This document shows positions 2,391 to 31,747 of a DNA stretch of 45,047 nucleotides, in pieces. The notes under the pieces were generated by a model. That model was given only the letters and a program-made list of their open reading frames with translations. It did not search any database and was not told the origin of the DNA. The translations under genes and the position numbers were made by a program. Source of the DNA: a bacterium (GTDB taxonomy: Bacteria; Chloroflexota; Chloroflexia; Chloroflexales; Kallotenuaceae); NCBI GenBank assembly GCA_016781505.1, contig JADDQF010000072.1, positions 1-45,047 of the forward strand, in the 5' to 3' direction. Every line of letters begins with the position of its first letter. The stretch's first letter is position 1.

Positions 2391-4286
2391 CTACCTCGAC
2401 GCCGCCGCTGTATCGGCATCCAGCGGCAATCCGACGAGCTCCATCAGCTTAAGCGCGTTGGTGGAGGTGGCAATGCCGGGTCGTAACCGGTAATCGAAGT
2501 GCATAACCGGGCCTTCCGGTCCCCGCGCAAATGTTTCGGTGAAATGCACAAGTTGCGCAGCAGCAGCTAGCTCGGGAGCGTCGCCGAGTGCAAGGTCATG
2601 GGTTGATACAGCTCCCAATGCTCCTTGGTTCAGCAGATGGCGAATAATCCGACGGGCTGCAATTTGGCGTTCACCCGTGTTGGTGCCGTGCAAAATTTCG
2701 TCGAGCAGGTACAGCAGCGTACGCTGCCCCGCTGCCCGGGTTTGTTCCGCCAGGTCGACAACCGCTTTGAGGCGCTGGATCTCGGCCATAAAATAGGAGA
2801 CGCCCCGCTCGAGCGAGTCTTGGACGCGCATACTGGTGGCAAGGGTGATTGGCGGCAGCTGGAGATCGCCAGCACAAACTGGTCCTCCCGCCTGCGCAAG
2901 CACAACGCTGAGGCCAACAGCCCGCAGCAAGGTGCTTTTGCCCGACATGTTGGAGCCGGTCACCAACAAAAAGGTGCCAGGTGGTCCAATCCGCACGTCG
3001 TTGTCGACGCGGGAGGCTGGTGGGAGCAGCGCGTGTCCTAGCGATCGGGCCGAGTAGCACGGTTGTCCAGCCGTCTGCAGGGTTGGAAAGGTCCAGCTGG
3101 GATGGTCATGGGCCAGCGCTGCGAGCGCGCTGAGCGCCTCAAGCTCGCCAAGGGCGGCCAACCAATCCCGCACATGGCAGCCAGCCGTGGCTTGCCACCG
3201 TTCAAGCAGCCACAGCACATGAAAGTTCCATAATGTCATAAGCTGGATTGGCAGATAAAACATAAAATGGCGCAATTCCGCCAGCGCCATGATCCGTGTC
3301 AGTCGGCGCATATGGTGGTCGGCGCGTTGGCCTTGCGCCGTCAAGCGCGCCTGTAGCCGCTGCAGCTCAGGATCGGTAAACGGTTGGGCGCTGATCAGCT
3401 GAAACAGATCGGTGTAAGTGCGGAACACAATTTGACGTGCGGCCACCCGATCGATCACTTCATCCACGCGGCCGCCGATCGTTAACACCAGCAGGAGGTT
3501 AACTACGATGCAGCCAACCCAGAGCGGATACGGGGTGAGGCCAGCGATCTGCAGCCCAATCGCAGCAAAGGTGAGCAGCGTCAGAAAACGGCTGAGCCAG
3601 ACTAGCCAGGGACGGGCGCTTAACCAGCCCGCGTCTTCGGACCAATCCAGAAAACGTTCGTAGTTGGTCTGGGCGGTGCCCATGCTGCGACCCCGCAGTG
3701 CGAGTTGGTCTCGGAAATCCAGGAGCGGCGCTAGCTGCTGTACGGCGCCTTGCCGGGCGCGCACCACTGGTGGCGCCGCGGGCTGGAGCAACCAGCGCTG
3801 CAGCGTTATCTGGCCAATCGGCGTGTAGGCCGTGTTCAGGAGATGCTGCAGCGAAGCGTGGCCGAGCAGATCAAGATCCGCCGCCAAGGCCATATCCGGG
3901 GGCTCGGGTGCTTGGCGCAGCGGCAAGGCTTGCCAGTCGCGGCGAATGCGCAGCAAGCCCTCATTGGTGATGGTCCACAGTTCGTTGAAGTGATGATGGT
4001 GGCGATCAATTGCCGTGTGATACGCATAGGCCGCCACAAAGCCAAGCGCCAGCAAGCCAGCGCCGAGGTACCACAGTGCCTCGCCCTGCCATACGCCGAT
4101 ACCTAGGCAGATGAGTGCACCCGTAAACAAAGCAAGATTTACGTTTGCCATCCGAGCACTTCGCGCGGCGTAATGATCTCGCTGGGCTGCAAACACCTGC
4201 CCACGAGCCTCGTAAGCCGTGACTGGAGCATCGATACCATCTGGAGCGGCATTCTGTCCTGGTTGTGGTGCCACGTACTGTGTCAT
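2391..4286 (-). CDS. Membrane-anchored MutS-family ATPase
   Basis: The product is 631 aa. The C-terminal 200 residues are a MutS-type ABC ATPase: Walker A at 444-452 (GSNMSGKST), Walker B LLYLLDE near 524-530, and the STHD motif near 561-564. The mismatch-recognition and connector domains of true MutS are missing. Instead there are two hydrophobic pairs, at about 48-90 and 228-272, which should be membrane helices. Residues 290-430 resemble the MutS lever/core region. This architecture is known in uncharacterised MutS-related proteins and is unlikely to act in classical mismatch repair. It is the last of three minus-strand genes, 114 nt after the Mut7-C gene. GAGGAG upstream supports the start. 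Confidence 0.8.
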   Translation of the reverse strand: MTQYVAPQPGQNAAPDGIDAPVTAYEARGQVFAAQRDHYAARSARMANVNLALFTGALICLGIGVWQGEALWYLGAGLLALGFVAAYAYHTAIDRHHHHFNELWTITNEGLLRIRRDWQALPLRQAPEPPDMALAADLDLLGHASLQHLLNTAYTPIGQITLQRWLLQPAAPPVVRARQGAVQQLAPLLDFRDQLALRGRSMGTAQTNYERFLDWSEDAGWLSARPWLVWLSRFLTLLTFAAIGLQIAGLTPYPLWVGCIVVNLLLVLTIGGRVDEVIDRVAARQIVFRTYTDLFQLISAQPFTDPELQRLQARLTAQGQRADHHMRRLTRIMALAELRHFMFYLPIQLMTLWNFHVLWLLERWQATAGCHVRDWLAALGELEALSALAALAHDHPSWTFPTLQTAGQPCYSARSLGHALLPPASRVDNDVRIGPPGTFLLVTGSNMSGKSTLLRAVGLSVVLAQAGGPVCAGDLQLPPITLATSMRVQDSLERGVSYFMAEIQRLKAVVDLAEQTRAAGQRTLLYLLDEILHGTNTGERQIAARRIIRHLLNQGALGAVSTHDLALGDAPELAAAAQLVHFTETFARGPEGPVMHFDYRLRPGIATSTNALKLMELVGLPLDADTAAASR

Positions 4287-24990: not shown

Positions 24991-25079
24991 GTGGACGGTG
25001 TTAGGAGCGAGTCGGTTGATGTCGATACATGGCGCGGAGCAAACAGCTACAATACGTGTCTGTGTAGGTGAGGATAACG

Positions 25080-26048
25080 ATGCACGAGCTCATTGTGTGC
25101 CATGGCCCAGGACGCTTCGAAACAGAAGTCAGTCCCGAGGCGATCAGCGAGCTGCGGGAACATCCCGAATTAACGCTTTGGTTTGACTTGCTGCAGCCAA
25201 CGGCGGTCGAAATCGAGCTGCTGCGCGAGGAATTTGGGTTTCATCCCCTGGCCCTGGAAGACGCCACGCGGCCCCATCAGCGGCCCAAGGTCGATAGCTA
25301 TGGCAACTACTACTTTGTGGTCTTTTACTGTCTTGATATGGATCCGGTGACTCACGAGGTGGGTACGACGCCGGTGTACATGTTCATCGGCAGAAATTAT
25401 GTGGTCACCGTGCACAACGAGCCGATTACCCAGCTGCAAGAAACTCTGCGGCGCTGGCAAGCGCCATCATCGCCGCTGGGCCAGGATGTAGGCTCGCTGG
25501 TGTACGCCCTGTTGGACGCGATTGTTGACGAATATTTTCCGCTGATGGACCGAATCGGCGACCTAGCCGAGGAGCTGGAAGATCATATCTTTGAGGACTT
25601 TGACGACGCCGCGCTGCAACAGATTTTCCAAATGAAAAAGGATTTGCTGCGCTTACGCCGGGCGGTGGCCCCGGAGCGGGATGTTCTCAATACCATGTTG
25701 CGGCGTGATATTCCCGTCTTTGACCAGCAGGATATTGTGTATCTGCAGGATGTGTACGACCATATCGTACGCACCACCGACGCCATCGATAACTACCGTG
25801 AGCTGTTATCCAGCGCGCTCGACAGCTTTTTATCCGTTCAGTCCAACCGCCTCAATCAAGTCGTCAAGGTGCTGACGGTCACATCGATTGTGTTGATGTC
25901 GGTGACGTTGGTTGCCGGTATTTACGGCATGAACTTCAAGTACATGCCCGAGCTGGAATGGCGCTATGGCTATGCCTGGGCGCTCGGCCTGATGGTTGCC
26001 ATTGCCGCCGGCACGATCACGCTCTTCCGCCGCCTTAAGTGGCTGTAA
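25080..26048 (+). CDS. corA: Magnesium/cobalt transporter CorA
   Basis: The product (322 aa) has the large cytoplasmic N-terminal domain and two C-terminal membrane helices. The pore signature GMN appears in YGMNFKYMPE near residue 280. It takes up Mg2+ (and often Co2+) as a pentamer. The ATG at 25080 is chosen over a GTG at 25068 because GTGAGG sits at the right distance. A TACAAT hexamer at 25048-25053 may be the -10, without a clear -35. It is convergent with mgtE, another Mg2+ uptake family. Confidence 0.94.
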   Translation: MHELIVCHGPGRFETEVSPEAISELREHPELTLWFDLLQPTAVEIELLREEFGFHPLALEDATRPHQRPKVDSYGNYYFVVFYCLDMDPVTHEVGTTPVYMFIGRNYVVTVHNEPITQLQETLRRWQAPSSPLGQDVGSLVYALLDAIVDEYFPLMDRIGDLAEELEDHIFEDFDDAALQQIFQMKKDLLRLRRAVAPERDVLNTMLRRDIPVFDQQDIVYLQDVYDHIVRTTDAIDNYRELLSSALDSFLSVQSNRLNQVVKVLTVTSIVLMSVTLVAGIYGMNFKYMPELEWRYGYAWALGLMVAIAAGTITLFRRLKWL

Positions 26049-26145: not shown

Positions 26146-27546
26146 CTACCAGCCGCCCAAAAATCCATAGCTTAGCAAAATCGTGGCAATGCCGTACAAA
26201 CAGACCGAGCCCATGACGTCGGTAAAGGTGGTGACGATAACGCCCGAAGCCAGGGCTGGATCCACTTTGCAGAGCCGCAGGCCCAACGGCACCAGCGTGC
26301 CCACGATCGCCGCGTTGATCAGATTGAGCAGAAGCGCCGCGCCCACCACCAAGCCAAGCATCATGCTGCCCTGCCACACCAGTCCGATCACGCCAACGCA
26401 GACGCCAAAGATCATGCCGTTCAGTCCACCAATGATAAACTCGCGGGTGAGAGTGCGCCAGCTATCGCGCAGGGTAATCTCGCCCAAGGCCAGCGAGCGC
26501 ACGATCAGGGTTAGTGTTTGAATACCGGCGTTGCCACCCTGGCCATTCACGATCAGCGCAAACGAGGGCAGCACCGCCAGCGCCGCGATCGTGTTGGTGA
26601 AGCGACTCACTACCCAGGCGGCGAACAGCGCGGTGGGAAGATTAACGAACAGCCAGGTCAGCCGCCGCCGGGATGAGCGGAACACGTTGTCGTACACGTC
26701 TTCGTCCGCATCCAGGTTGGCCAGGTGGTAGATATCTTCGGTTGCTTCTTCTTCCACCACATCGAACAGGTCGTCGGCGGTGACCACGCCAACCAGCTTG
26801 CGGTCGTCGTCCACGATGGGCAGCGCCAGCAAGTCATACCGCGCCAGCAAGCGGGCACACTCTTCCTGGTCGGTACCGACATCCGCCGTGATCACATCCG
26901 GCTTCATGATCGCGCCTAGCTGTACGTGTGGCGCCGCTACTACCAGTTGGCGCAGCGACACCACGCCAATCAACCGATCGGCGTCGTCGGTAACAAACAG
27001 GTAGTAGCTGGTTTCTTCGTCTGGCTTGTGGCGCCGGAGGAACTCAATCGTTTGCTGAACGGTCATGGACTGCCGGAACGCGACCACGTGCGGGATCATC
27101 AGGCCGCCCGCGCTGTCTTCCTCGTGCTCCAGGAGCTCACGGACCTCGTCTTCCTGGTCCATTTCGGCCAGCGCTGCCTCGGCCTTGGTCTCGTCCAGCT
27201 CGCCCAGAACGTCGGCGGCGTCGTCGGGCGCCATTTCGTCCAGGAATTCGGACAGCGCCTCAGCGTCCAGACGGTTGGCGACATCGGTACGCTCGTCTTC
27301 GTCCAGCTCGATCAGCACGTCCGCGCCGATGCCGGGCTCCAGCTCCTCGACAACCTCGGCGCGATCAGCGGGGTCTAGCTCTTCCAGCACGTCCGCGCCG
27401 TCGGCAGGATGGAGCGCGGCGACAACATCGGCCGCCTCAGTCGGCCGCAGCGCTGAAATAAGGTCGGCCGCTTCTTCAACCTGACCCTGAGCTAACAATG
27501 CACGGACTTGATCCAGGATCAGGTCCAGTTCATGAACCGGTGGCAT
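26146..27546 (-). CDS. mgtE: Magnesium transporter MgtE
   Basis: The product is 466 aa. An N-terminal superhelical, acidic MgtE_N domain (about 15-125) with repeated VxxLxPxDxAxVxxxL units is followed by a CBS pair (about 130-255) and a membrane domain (about 275-466) containing the VNGQGGNAGIQ motif. In the known family, Mg2+ bound by the cytoplasmic domains closes the channel. The start at 27546 is set by GGGGAGGTG just upstream; the longer frame to 27579 runs into the terminator-like hairpin. The gene sits behind a structured leader that looks like an attenuator. Confidence 0.95.
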   Translation of the reverse strand: MPPVHELDLILDQVRALLAQGQVEEAADLISALRPTEAADVVAALHPADGADVLEELDPADRAEVVEELEPGIGADVLIELDEDERTDVANRLDAEALSEFLDEMAPDDAADVLGELDETKAEAALAEMDQEDEVRELLEHEEDSAGGLMIPHVVAFRQSMTVQQTIEFLRRHKPDEETSYYLFVTDDADRLIGVVSLRQLVVAAPHVQLGAIMKPDVITADVGTDQEECARLLARYDLLALPIVDDDRKLVGVVTADDLFDVVEEEATEDIYHLANLDADEDVYDNVFRSSRRRLTWLFVNLPTALFAAWVVSRFTNTIAALAVLPSFALIVNGQGGNAGIQTLTLIVRSLALGEITLRDSWRTLTREFIIGGLNGMIFGVCVGVIGLVWQGSMMLGLVVGAALLLNLINAAIVGTLVPLGLRLCKVDPALASGVIVTTFTDVMGSVCLYGIATILLSYGFLGGW

Positions 27547-27550
27547 GGCA

Positions 27551-27559
27551 CACCTCCCC
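27551..27559 (-). promoter_or_regulatory. mgtE ribosome binding site
   Basis: GGGGAGGTG on the minus strand ends 4 nt before the mgtE ATG. It decides the start, and it lies just 18 nt downstream of the leader terminator. Confidence 0.75.
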
Positions 27560-27577
27560 GCGGGTTGTTGCGCACAC

Positions 27578-27600
27578 AAAAGGGCGGGACTAGCCCGCCC
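27578..27600 (-). terminator. Intrinsic terminator in the mgtE leader
   Basis: On the minus strand a 7-bp all-GC stem, GGGCGGG (27600-27594) and CCCGCCC (27588-27582), has a 5-nt loop and is followed by TTTT (27581-27578). No gene lies upstream on this strand, so it can only end leader transcripts. Confidence 0.65.
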
Positions 27601-27687
27601 TCGCGCATCGGCCTGCCAATGCTCTGGTCTGGCTAATCCTGCCGCACTCGAATGCGGTTACTAGAATGTCCGTCTGCATTCATATAC
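27578..27687 (-). promoter_or_regulatory. Structured mgtE leader, candidate riboswitch/attenuator
   Basis: The leader predicted from the promoter runs from about 27687 to 27547. It contains a hairpin (ccgca 27642-27646 with tgcgg 27653-27657), then GGATTAGCC (minus strand, 27639-27631), then the terminator. GGATTAGCC can form nine pairs, one of them G-U, with GGCTAGTCC (27595-27587), which spans the end of the terminator's 5' arm, its loop and the beginning of its 3' arm. The two folds exclude each other, the usual logic of transcription attenuation. I do not find the conserved blocks of the M-box Mg2+ riboswitch, so the class is unassigned. Confidence 0.5.
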
Positions 27688-27693
27688 ACTTTG

Positions 27694-27722
27694 ATTGTAC
27701 TCCAGTCACAGAGCCGTGGCAA
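27694..27722 (-). promoter_or_regulatory. Promoter of mgtE
   Basis: On the minus strand: TTGCCA (27722-27717), 17-nt spacer, TACAAT (27699-27694). Same hexamers and spacing as the lipoprotein metalloprotease promoter. Confidence 0.7.
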
Positions 27723-28512: not shown

Positions 28513-28546
28513 CAGGCTCCATGGATACCATGGAGCCTGTTGTTTT
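28513..28546 (+). terminator. Rho-independent terminator of the DUF2231 gene
   Basis: A perfect 12-bp stem, caggctccatgg (28513-28524) with its complement at 28528-28539, a 3-nt loop and the tail TTGTTTT. Confidence 0.87.
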
Positions 28547-28581: not shown

Positions 28582-28611
28582 TTGACATGCATCACAGCCC
28601 AATGGTACAGT
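28582..28611 (+). promoter_or_regulatory. Promoter of first PMT gene
   Basis: TTGACA (28582-28587), 18-nt spacer, TACAGT (28606-28611), with TGG just before the -10. The spacer end, atgg, and both hexamers are identical in the second PMT gene's promoter. Confidence 0.72.
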
Positions 28612-28661
28612 GCTACGGCGAGCATACACACGTGGTAGCCGGATCAGAAGGAAACGATCGC

Positions 28662-30194
28662 ATGTCCACCGAAGGAGCCCCGGGCGCGCCATCTCAGCTA
28701 TTACCCTCTGAGACCTTGCGTCCATCGGTAACTGCAGCTGCGCGCCCCAGCAGCAACGCCGTTGGTGCGCGTTGGGTTCGGCTTGACACAGTTATTGTGC
28801 TGGCGGCAATTGTATCCGCGCTCAGCTTGTACCTGTTCCGGCTTGATCAGCCCGCCCAATATATCTATGACGAGCTGTATCACGCGTACACGGCGGCCAA
28901 ACTTGCCGAAGGGAGTCCGGCGCCCTATGATCCGTTTGCCAAGGTGCCCGAGGCTGATAAGCAGCGTGGCAAAGTGGCGCATGTGTGGGATCATCCTGCG
29001 TTTGCCAAATTGCCGATGCAGGTTGGGATCAAGCTTTTTGGCGACCGGCCATTCGGGTGGCGCATTGCCAATGCGGTCTTTGGCAGCCTCGGGATCGGTA
29101 TTTTTTACATCCTAGGCCGCAGACTGTTTCAGCGTGAGGTGGCCTTGTATGCCACGGCGCTGCTGTTGCTCGACGGCTTGTGGTTTGTTGAATCGCGGCT
29201 GGCGCTCAACGACATCTACCTTGTCTGCTTTTTGCTGCTGGGGTATCTTGGCTTTGCATTGTATTTCCAAAGCCCGCCGGAGCGACGTTGGCGCTACCTG
29301 TGGCTCACGGGCGCAGGGCTGGGCCTGGCGATCGCCACGAAATGGTCGGCGCTGTACTCGATTGGCCTGGTTGGCCTGGCAGCAACAATTCGTGAGACGT
29401 GGCTTTGTTTGGCCGCTGCGCGGACGCAGCCTCGACGTGCGGCGCTCCAGCTACTCGGCGCCGCCGCAACATTAGGGGGTGCGTTCCTGCTCCTGCCAGC
29501 CGCCTTGTATGTTGCGGCCTACGCCCAATATTTCAGCATGGGCTTTACCTGGAGCGACTGGCGCGAGCTCCAGCGGCAGATGTGGATCTACCATACCAAT
29601 CTGAAAGCGCCGCACAGCTGGGCATCGCCCTGGTGGTCCTGGCCGCTGATGCTGCGTCCCGTCTGGTATCACCTTTTCATTATGGGCAATCCCCTGAGCT
29701 GGTGGCTGCATCTGCCGGCTGTGCTGTTTGTAGGCATCCAATGGATTCGTGGGCGCTTTCGGTCGGCAGCCTTAGGCTTGGTGTTGCTGGGTTATTTCGG
29801 GCAGTGGTTGCCGTGGTCTTTGTCGCCGCGGGTGGCCTACTTCTACCACATGTTGCCGAGCGTGCCCTTTGCCTGTCTGGCCTTGGGATACACGTTGGCG
29901 CAGATCCGGCCGCGCCGCGTACCCATCACTCCCAGTCGCTGGATCCATGGCCGAACACTGGTACGGGGATACCTCGTCGTGGTGCTGCTGGGCTTTATCT
30001 TCTTTTATCCCATGTTTACCTGGCTGCCGGTCTCGGATGCGCCAATCGTGCCGTTGTCACGGCTCGGCCTGGGCCCTGATCTAAACTTCGTGCAGCTGCA
30101 CTATTGGCTGCCCACCTGGGTGCCGGGCAGTCCATGGGCCTACGGATCGCCCCAGCCGGCCGTATGGGATTTGCTTCGGTCACTGCTGCGCTAA
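28662..30194 (+). CDS. Protein O-mannosyltransferase-like glycosyltransferase (GT39), copy 1
   Basis: The product is 510 aa and an integral membrane protein with many hydrophobic helices. The first outside loop carries YIYDELYHAY with the catalytic-type Asp-Glu pair of the PMT family, and LLLDGLWFVESR and KWSALYSIGL match PMT blocks. Such enzymes move mannose from a polyprenyl-phosphate carrier to exported proteins (Ser/Thr). The N-terminal 45 residues are hydrophilic. The ATG at 28662 follows AAGGAAA; the longer frame from 28587 begins in the promoter. It is the first of two tandem paralogues, and the proteins can be aligned by eye along nearly their whole length. Confidence 0.86.
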   Translation: MSTEGAPGAPSQLLPSETLRPSVTAAARPSSNAVGARWVRLDTVIVLAAIVSALSLYLFRLDQPAQYIYDELYHAYTAAKLAEGSPAPYDPFAKVPEADKQRGKVAHVWDHPAFAKLPMQVGIKLFGDRPFGWRIANAVFGSLGIGIFYILGRRLFQREVALYATALLLLDGLWFVESRLALNDIYLVCFLLLGYLGFALYFQSPPERRWRYLWLTGAGLGLAIATKWSALYSIGLVGLAATIRETWLCLAAARTQPRRAALQLLGAAATLGGAFLLLPAALYVAAYAQYFSMGFTWSDWRELQRQMWIYHTNLKAPHSWASPWWSWPLMLRPVWYHLFIMGNPLSWWLHLPAVLFVGIQWIRGRFRSAALGLVLLGYFGQWLPWSLSPRVAYFYHMLPSVPFACLALGYTLAQIRPRRVPITPSRWIHGRTLVRGYLVVVLLGFIFFYPMFTWLPVSDAPIVPLSRLGLGPDLNFVQLHYWLPTWVPGSPWAYGSPQPAVWDLLRSLLR

Positions 30195-30268
30195 GCAGCC
30201 CGCAACGTGAATTAAGTACGAGCTCGTGGTCATACATGCGTACCATGGGCACGTAGTGTTTGCGTGCA

Positions 30269-30298
30269 TTGACAAGCGTTCCGTCCTGATGGTACAGT
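30269..30298 (+). promoter_or_regulatory. Promoter of second PMT gene
   Basis: TTGACA (30269-30274), 18-nt spacer, TACAGT (30293-30298). Both hexamers, the spacing and the atgg just before the -10 match the first PMT promoter; the rest of the spacer differs. Confidence 0.72.
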
Positions 30299-30343
30299 CA
30301 GCCGCGCCGTTACCGGAGCCTCCAAGCCTAAGGATGCTGAACC

Positions 30344-31747
30344 ATGAGCTCTAAAGCGCGCTCCGTACGATCACGGGCGTCCAGCAGGGCGGTTGTTGTC
30401 CCTCAGCCAGTTACAAGCAGTTGGTCGCGGGCTGACACGCTGGTCTTAGCCGTGTTGATGCTGGCCGCGCTCCTTTTATATCTGTGGCGGCTCGACCAGC
30501 CGCGCGAGTATATCTACGACGAGGTGTATCATGCCTACACCGCGGCGCGTCTGGCCGAAGGCAATCCAGCTCCCTATGATCCATTTGCAACGGTGCCGCC
30601 GGAAGGCAAGCCCGTCAATGCGGCCTATGAATGGACCCATCCGGCGCTAGCCAAGCTGATCATGCAAGGCGGCATTCTGCTGTTTGGCGATACACCGCTT
30701 GGTTGGCGTTTTGCCAGCGCTGTTTTCGGCGCCCTTGGTATCGGCATTTTTTATGTGCTTGGCCGTACACTGTTTGAGCGTCGGGTTGGGCTCACCGCTA
30801 GCGTACTGCTGCTGCTGGATGGGCTGTGGTTTGTGCAGTCGCGCACGGCCATGAACGATATTTTTCTGGTTTGCTTTCTGCTGCTCGCGTATCTCGCCTT
30901 TTACCACTACCTGACGCACCCCGATACCAAGCGCTGGCGCTATCTATGGCTCACGGGTGCTGCCCTCGGCCTGGCATTGGCGACCAAATGGTCCGGGCTT
31001 TACTCGTATGGGTTGATGGGTATGGTTGCCGCTGTACGCGAGGTGCGGCTATACGTAACGAAGCGCTCAGCCGCACCGCTCCAGGCCCTACTGACGCTAG
31101 CAGGTGCATTCGTATTGGTCCCCGCTGCGCTTTATATTGGCGGCTACGTTCAGTATTTCGGGATGGGCTATGGTTGGAGCCAGTGGCGCGAGCTGCAGCG
31201 ACAGATGGTTTACTATCATACCAATCTGCGCGCCTGCCATGACTGGGCTTCGCCCGGCTGGAGCTGGCCATTGCTGGCGCGGCCGGTCTGGTATTATGGC
31301 GCGTATCCAGCTGCCGGAACCGTGGCAAATGTGTTTGCCTTGGGCAATCCGATCTCATGGTGGCCCGCGCTTCCAGCCATTGTACTGGTTGCTCTGCGTT
31401 GGCGTGGACAAGCTTACCGTTCGATCGGCCTGGGCTTGGTGCTGCTTGGCTTTTTGGGGCAATGGCTGCCGTGGTTGTTGTCGCCGCGCATATCCTACCT
31501 GTACCACATGCTGCCCAGCGTGCCATTCGGCTGTTTAGCGATTGCCTATGCGCTGCATCAACTGCACGTGCGGCGTGTGCTGGTGTGGCTCTATTTGGCG
31601 CTGGTGCTGGCCGGATTTGTGTATTTTTATCCGCAATACGCCGCCGTGCCGATCTCGAATGCCTCTGCCGATCAACATTACTGGGTGCGGACCTGGCAAC
31701 CGAGCTCGGAGTGGGCCTATAAATGCCCATCCGGCGCGACCCCATAG
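30344..31747 (+). CDS. Protein O-mannosyltransferase-like glycosyltransferase (GT39), copy 2
   Basis: The product is 467 aa, a polytopic membrane protein closely similar to copy 1: YIYDEVYHAYTAARLAEG, LLLDGLWFVQSR, KWSGLYSYGL and the PRISYLYHMLPSVPFG block all have near-identical counterparts. It is about 40 residues shorter, mainly at the N-terminus and near the end. The Asp-Glu pair in the first loop is kept, so it is probably active. AAGGA precedes the start. The two copies may differ in acceptor or work as a pair, as PMT proteins form dimers in yeast; that is an analogy, not evidence. Confidence 0.86.
   Translation: MSSKARSVRSRASSRAVVVPQPVTSSWSRADTLVLAVLMLAALLLYLWRLDQPREYIYDEVYHAYTAARLAEGNPAPYDPFATVPPEGKPVNAAYEWTHPALAKLIMQGGILLFGDTPLGWRFASAVFGALGIGIFYVLGRTLFERRVGLTASVLLLLDGLWFVQSRTAMNDIFLVCFLLLAYLAFYHYLTHPDTKRWRYLWLTGAALGLALATKWSGLYSYGLMGMVAAVREVRLYVTKRSAAPLQALLTLAGAFVLVPAALYIGGYVQYFGMGYGWSQWRELQRQMVYYHTNLRACHDWASPGWSWPLLARPVWYYGAYPAAGTVANVFALGNPISWWPALPAIVLVALRWRGQAYRSIGLGLVLLGFLGQWLPWLLSPRISYLYHMLPSVPFGCLAIAYALHQLHVRRVLVWLYLALVLAGFVYFYPQYAAVPISNASADQHYWVRTWQPSSEWAYKCPSGATP

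Follow-up and report, generated by a model that had tools for sequence, protein, structure and literature searches.

A short leader ORF and alternative hairpins ahead of mgtE suggest a translation-coupled attenuator, probably responsive to Mg2+, in Chloroflexota

The leader of mgtE in the window (i.e. the whole stretch of 45,047 nucleotides of Kallotenuaceae DNA that was analyzed) probably acts as a translation-coupled attenuator, for which low Mg2+, sensed via the ribosome, is the likeliest signal. A candidate promoter, a short upstream ORF (uORF), two alternative helices, the placement of the uORF stop codon at one helix arm, and the association of all these with mgtE can be read from the sequence. 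The features, listed from 5' to 3' along the minus strand, are as follows.

27717 to 27722, minus strand: -35 hexamer TTGCCA, present in the congener G002 too
27694 to 27699, minus strand: -10 hexamer TACAAT, 8-11 nt ahead of the leader ATG wherever both are visible in orthologs
27633 to 27683, minus strand: uORF of 16 codons plus TAG, MNADGHSSNRIRVRQD, predicted to be leaderless; read from the sequence, with counterparts in orthologs
27642 to 27657, minus strand: hairpin CCGCAT-TCGA-GTGCGG within the uORF, kept in four congeners (covariation unusable) and not found outside the genus
27631 to 27639, minus strand: antiterminator 5' arm GGATTAGCC, which holds the uORF TAG
27605 to 27622, minus strand: hairpin inside the antiterminator helix, from folding and congener comparison
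27582 to 27600, minus strand: terminator hairpin GGGCGGG-CTAGT-CCCGCCC, whose seven pairs are all conserved in four congeners; a hairpin lies in the same place in all orthologs of the window's family and the second family
27587 to 27595, minus strand: antiterminator 3' arm GGCTAGTCC, covering the end of the terminator 5' arm, the loop, and the start of the 3' arm
27578 to 27581, minus strand: short T-tract TTTT after the terminator hairpin, identical in congeners
27551 to 27559, minus strand: Shine-Dalgarno (SD) sequence of mgtE, GGGGAGGTG
26146 to 27546, minus strand: mgtE (ATG at 27546-27544), Mg2+ transporter of 466 amino acids, assigned by TIGR00400 and Pfam

The mgtE product matches the curated TIGR00400 model with 341 bits (cut-off 233) and contains the Pfam domains MgtE, MgtE_N, and CBS. 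A preliminary description of the leader had placed a promoter, a hairpin, and an intrinsic terminator 18 nt before the SD sequence GGGGAGGTG on this strand, and all three were found where it had put them, the hairpin at 27657-27642. The promoter, with its 17-nt spacer, is the only sigma-70-like site of the intergenic region (0.1 expected from shuffled sequences), and the seven-pair GC stem of the terminator is followed by a U-tract of only four T, with the result that a strict terminator scan of the intergenic region did not list the hairpin. The description had further held that this terminator has no other evident purpose. We agree, because the upstream neighbor of mgtE, a DUF2231 gene (Pfam), is divergent and leaves no minus-strand gene upstream for the terminator to end. 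Around the locus we note that mgtE (26146-27546, minus strand) and corA (25068-26048, plus strand), which encode unrelated Mg2+ transporters, lie next to each other in convergent orientation, and that no leader ORF comparable with that of mgtE was seen for corA. Directly 3' of the DUF2231 gene there is a strong hairpin of 12 bp followed by T-rich sequence (28513-28539, plus strand), which looks like an ordinary terminator, and two tandem O-mannosyltransferase-like genes follow (28582-31747, plus strand), with a TTGACA-18-TACAGT promoter-like site near each start (28582 and 30269).

The uORF does not figure in the preliminary description and was found by reading the minus strand from 27683 (codons ATG AAT GCA GAC GGA CAT TCT AGT AAC CGC ATT CGA GTG CGG CAG GAT TAG). 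Its ATG sits 10 nt downstream of the -10 box TACAAT, and so a leaderless or almost leaderless transcript is predicted; a TANNNT box ~10 bp ahead of the start codon is a signature of leaderless genes that has been reported for some Chloroflexi too (PMC3160421). Fourteen close mgtE orthologs from the window's family (f1) and a second family (f2) were compared, and all 14 have a uORF ahead of a hairpin before mgtE. Where the start is visible (13 of 13 orthologs), it lies 8-11 nt after a -10 box, the spacing predicted for leaderless genes, and the peptide mostly begins M(N/S)xDG. Within the genus, the leader is kept in three congeners, with 10 nt between the -10 box and the ATG in both of those whose contig reaches the start; their uORF peptides are MNADGHSSNRIQLRQG and MSTDEHSSYRIRLRTG, and the third is represented by the tail SSYRIRLRTG at the beginning of a contig. 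The congener alignment has no indels in the uORF and has indels downstream of it. Its substitutions show, by eye, no third-position bias, and the within-genus substitutions are thus by themselves no proof of coding. The uORF of the sister genus (G005) reads MNADGDPRQAWPWGQAITKQHRYPQQG, with its stop codon within GGGATAG, followed by GGGCGGGCTGATCCCGCCC. In the second family, the order TATACT or TACAAT, 8-9 nt, ATG, short ORF, hairpin, and mgtE was seen in all nine genomes that have a close mgtE ortholog (for example, MSTDGSTTEDDPQQAELPLIG, MSTDGPTYQHRLIR, MSTDGPIIYSTT, and MSNGESQPIQLMA); the U-tract is weak in this family and absent in G030. A pattern combining the -10 box, the spacing, and an ATG with Asp-Gly codons (ATGARYNCNGAYGG) had eight matches in 400 genomes of the phylum, seven of which are mgtE leaders, compared with three matches for the reversed-pattern control; a match in G050 lies inside a TolB-like gene and was ruled out as an mgtE leader. 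Across genera and families there is again a short ORF with an Asp-Gly N terminus that starts 8-11 nt downstream of the -10 box and has a pairing arm at its stop codon, which is the anatomy of a leader-peptide attenuator.

We propose that the mRNA starts a few bases ahead of the AUG of the 16-codon leader ORF and that this ORF is translated. A ribosome reaching the uORF stop codon would cover the antiterminator arm GGAUUAGCC, so that the terminator hairpin would form and transcription would stop before mgtE. If uORF translation breaks down early, because the ribosome does not start, drops off, or stalls near the start, GGAUUAGCC would instead pair with GGCUAGUCC, no terminator would form, and mgtE would be made. 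Low Mg2+, which would weaken the ribosome itself, is the likeliest cause of such failure, through drop-off at an acidic N terminus, as reported for enterobacterial MgtL and MgtQ, and/or through poor 70S initiation at the leaderless start. The window's peptide has one acidic residue in its first fifteen, and acidic drop-off is therefore not strongly indicated there; Mg2+-sensitive 70S initiation on the leaderless start is just as possible.

The switch at the heart of this proposal depends on pairing between GGATTAGCC (27639-27631) and GGCTAGTCC (27595-27587), for which the preliminary description had claimed nine paired positions, one of them G-U. We recovered exactly this pairing, and it exceeds chance: its duplex energy gave p=0.001, and when the upstream sequence was shuffled and the terminator kept, the mean probability of the terminator, P(terminator), was 0.92, compared with 0.000 for the real leader, a value as low in 0/200 shuffles. 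The uORF stop codon (TAG, 27635-27633) falls within GGATTAGCC. For covariation in the two helices, which the description had named as a check, the four sequences gave no power: they hold no usable covariation, and of the nine base pairs the full set occurs only in the window's species, with 8/9 and 7/9 positions in congeners. Each leader was next folded up to the end of its hairpin, both free and with the bases that a ribosome would cover at the uORF stop codon kept unpaired, and nine leaders (G000, G002, G003, G005, G006, G012, G027, G030, and G096) were compared with 200 shuffles. In the window (G000), predicted P(terminator) rose from 0.00 when free to 0.99 when occupied, a shift as strong in 0/200 shuffles. 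The predicted values were 0.01 and 0.99 for G006 (0/200), 0.24 and 0.98 for G012 (3/200), 0.04 and 0.85 for G027 (9/200), and 0.00 and 0.87 for G096 (0/200), which belongs to another family of the class and has a strong terminator. The G006 mask stops at the hairpin; a full ribosome footprint would overlap the hairpin itself and gave P(terminator) of 0.00. The predicted switch was weak in G002 (11/200 shuffles as strong) and absent in G003, G005, and G030. From these shifts, five of the nine leaders are predicted to switch the gene off once the uORF is completed and to switch it on if translation fails early. Further, complementarity between the arm at the uORF stop codon and the hairpin is enriched in terminator-type leaders (Fisher p 5e-6, not corrected for relatedness). 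Another account would make the hairpin a partial terminator that acts constitutively, or an element of mRNA stability, with the ORF and alternative pairing being coincidence. The short U-tract, which escapes the strict scan, and the relatives lacking a predicted switch are consistent with it, but hairpin and ORF are kept together in 14/14 orthologs and the switch strength lies above that of all 200 shuffles in three lineages, and we regard this account as highly improbable.

The preliminary description had interpreted the leader as an unclassified attenuating riboswitch responding to Mg2+. A covariance search of the leader against Rfam gave no match at gathering, and the M-box (RF00380) was without a match at E up to 10, which bears out the remark that M-box blocks are not recognizable; just one irrelevant viral pseudoknot (E 3.6) appeared, and it was rejected. 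Direct binding of Mg2+ or another ligand, with the ORF being incidental, would be in keeping with the strong nucleotide conservation within the genus, the hairpin at 27657-27642 included, and with the stable, mutually exclusive structures. Outside the genus, however, the terminator hairpin is the only structure that the leaders of the sister genus and the second family share, and these keep just the -10 box, the ATG, the short ORF, and this hairpin, with nothing resembling an aptamer; moreover, in other lineages the alternative arm follows the stop codon of the uORF. Together with the Rfam result, this makes a ligand-binding riboswitch improbable. Of the earlier interpretation, an attenuating, probably Mg2+-related, non-M-box element is supported; the ligand-binding part is not, because no aptamer-like structure is kept beyond the genus. 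M-boxes were found in 0/15 genomes of f1 and f2 compared with 23/67 genomes of the sister families f3 and f4, and the two controls thus seem to complement each other, although shared ancestry of the genomes is a caveat here. We note that one M-box in a sister family (L140 of G026, ~2440-2608, minus strand) is followed by small ORFs and a CorA-like gene rather than by mgtE.

An attenuator with the same anatomy could respond to something other than Mg2+, such as an amino acid, the general state of translation, or an antibiotic; ribosome-sensing uORFs are common, and the window's uORF has three Arg codons. Attenuation by arginine was rejected because the Arg codons are not common to the lineages, and no codon type recurs across them except Asp-Gly at codons 4-5. 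Further, the controlled gene is mgtE every time, and uORFs with early acidic codons ahead of Mg2+ transporters are established in Mg2+ control. We therefore consider a signal other than Mg2+ rather unlikely and favor the Mg2+-responsive, translation-coupled attenuator.

Short ORFs also precede mgtE homologs in other classes of the phylum. Two with acidic N termini, MNDDEPVGDRNK... and MNDDDLAGDR..., both start 9 nt downstream of TATACT and are followed by strong terminators. MNTDPDSYQQTAPPGITHC is a further acidic-N-terminus ORF ahead of a terminator and an mgtE homolog of another class. We collected 61 further mgtE leaders from 249 genomes of another class and scored uORFs in which codons 2-5 include two or more Asp/Glu. 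Such acidic uORFs preceded mgtE in 20/61 leaders, compared with 5.7 in shuffles (sd 2.3, maximum 13) and 5 on the reverse strand; against 13/205 upstream regions of other genes the odds ratio was 7.2, with a p of 6e-7 that is indicative only, because the criterion was picked after some leaders had been seen and the genomes are related. Under a looser criterion (one or more Asp/Glu in codons 2-5 together with four or more Asp/Glu/Pro in codons 2-12), there were 14 compared with 9.7 expected, 15/200 shuffles reached 14, and enrichment is unclear. The acidic or proline-bearing N termini found elsewhere include DGDP, EDDP, MNDDEP, MNTDPD, and MDEIKPEDGPP, compared with the single Asp of the window (MNADGH).

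In many of the 61 leaders the SD sequence of mgtE lies in a hairpin, and an arm a few nucleotides past the uORF stop codon is complementary to the anti-SD strand (TCCCAGAGG/CCTCTGGGA, CCCCCGGA/TCCGGGGG, and CCCCTGG/CCAGGG); the Fisher p for this complementarity at the stop codon is 5e-14, not corrected for relatedness. Release of the SD sequence was not seen in these leaders, as equilibrium folding keeps it sequestered in both states, and an SD-type switch, if real, must therefore be kinetic. A second leader type of the other class (L107, L109, L112, L118, L122-L125, L127, L130, and L132) combines such an SD hairpin, and an arm complementary to the anti-SD strand just past the uORF stop codon, with an acidic uORF that ends 57-70 nt before mgtE. 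Other arrangements were also observed. First, in family f35 (L063, L073, and L108), a uORF with the pattern M(N/D)xEGxxP begins at or adjoining the stop codon of the gene ahead of it, and coupling to that gene may allow its translation. Second, in two f4 genomes (L036 and L039), the start codon of mgtE is overlapped by a tiny acidic ORF (MSEGEER or MSEGERDDPTDQ), which may reflect translational coupling rather than attenuation; in the f4 genomes G017 and G063, mgtE has no leader like the window's and only a tiny ORF that overlaps its start. Tentatively, and with clearly less confidence than for the window's own leader, we suggest that ribosome-based Mg2+ sensing by short leader ORFs may be a general control of mgtE across Chloroflexota, with an intrinsic terminator or SD sequestration as output. 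Because the ORF is leaderless in the window's lineage, Mg2+-dependent 70S initiation may itself be the sensor there.

The proposed logic has precedents. MgtL of Escherichia coli and Salmonella, with its EPDP motif and ribosome drop-off at low Mg2+ (PMC11282234 and PMC11552253), is likewise a short ORF before a Mg2+ transporter gene, completion of which means off and failure on. Its early acidic and proline codons resemble those of mgtE leaders in other lineages, although the window's peptide has one early acidic residue, and it differs in governing mgtA through Rho-dependent termination and in having its own SD sequence, whereas the window has mgtE, an intrinsic-type hairpin, and a predicted leaderless ORF. 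In MgtQ of Salmonella mgtB, an ORF with Asp2/Glu5, ribosome destabilization frees a sequestered ribosome-binding site (PMC8092293), a logic shared with the SD-type mgtE leaders of other Chloroflexota classes; MgtQ, however, lies between operon genes and has a translational output only, unlike the window's leader with its terminator. The mgtE motif (riboswitch candidate SRC-65-1), reported upstream of mgtE only in Thioalkalivibrio (PMC11109978), has the SD sequence in a large P4 stem and no described uORF, and so does not resemble the window's leader. The M-box is also a Mg2+-dependent attenuator before Mg2+ transporter genes, but is unmatched in the window and in f1 and f2. Work by Canestrari from 2020 is said to describe leaderless polycysteine attenuators in mycobacteria, in which leaderless leader ORFs control downstream genes. 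These and the mycobacterial ilvB1 attenuator sense amino acids via runs of regulatory codons, whereas the window's uORF has no such runs. In the ilvB1 case a ribosome at the stop codon masks the antiterminator (PMC13236596), as we propose for the window. Among open-licence papers we found no report of uORF or riboswitch control of an mgtE leader in Chloroflexi, the Thioalkalivibrio motif being the only mgtE leader candidate.

Overall, the principle is known in enterobacteria, and the best reading is that the window's element would work like MgtL; we do not claim common descent. If this is true, gauging Mg2+ by the success of translation would not be an enterobacterial peculiarity but would have arisen or persisted in a distant phylum, in Chloroflexota with a different transporter and different output modules. 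The leaders would also offer a natural set of ORFs in which an acidic N terminus, proline, and a leaderless start can be compared as causes of ribosomal sensitivity to Mg2+, and orphan riboswitch candidates ahead of ion transporters would warrant a check for hidden ORFs.
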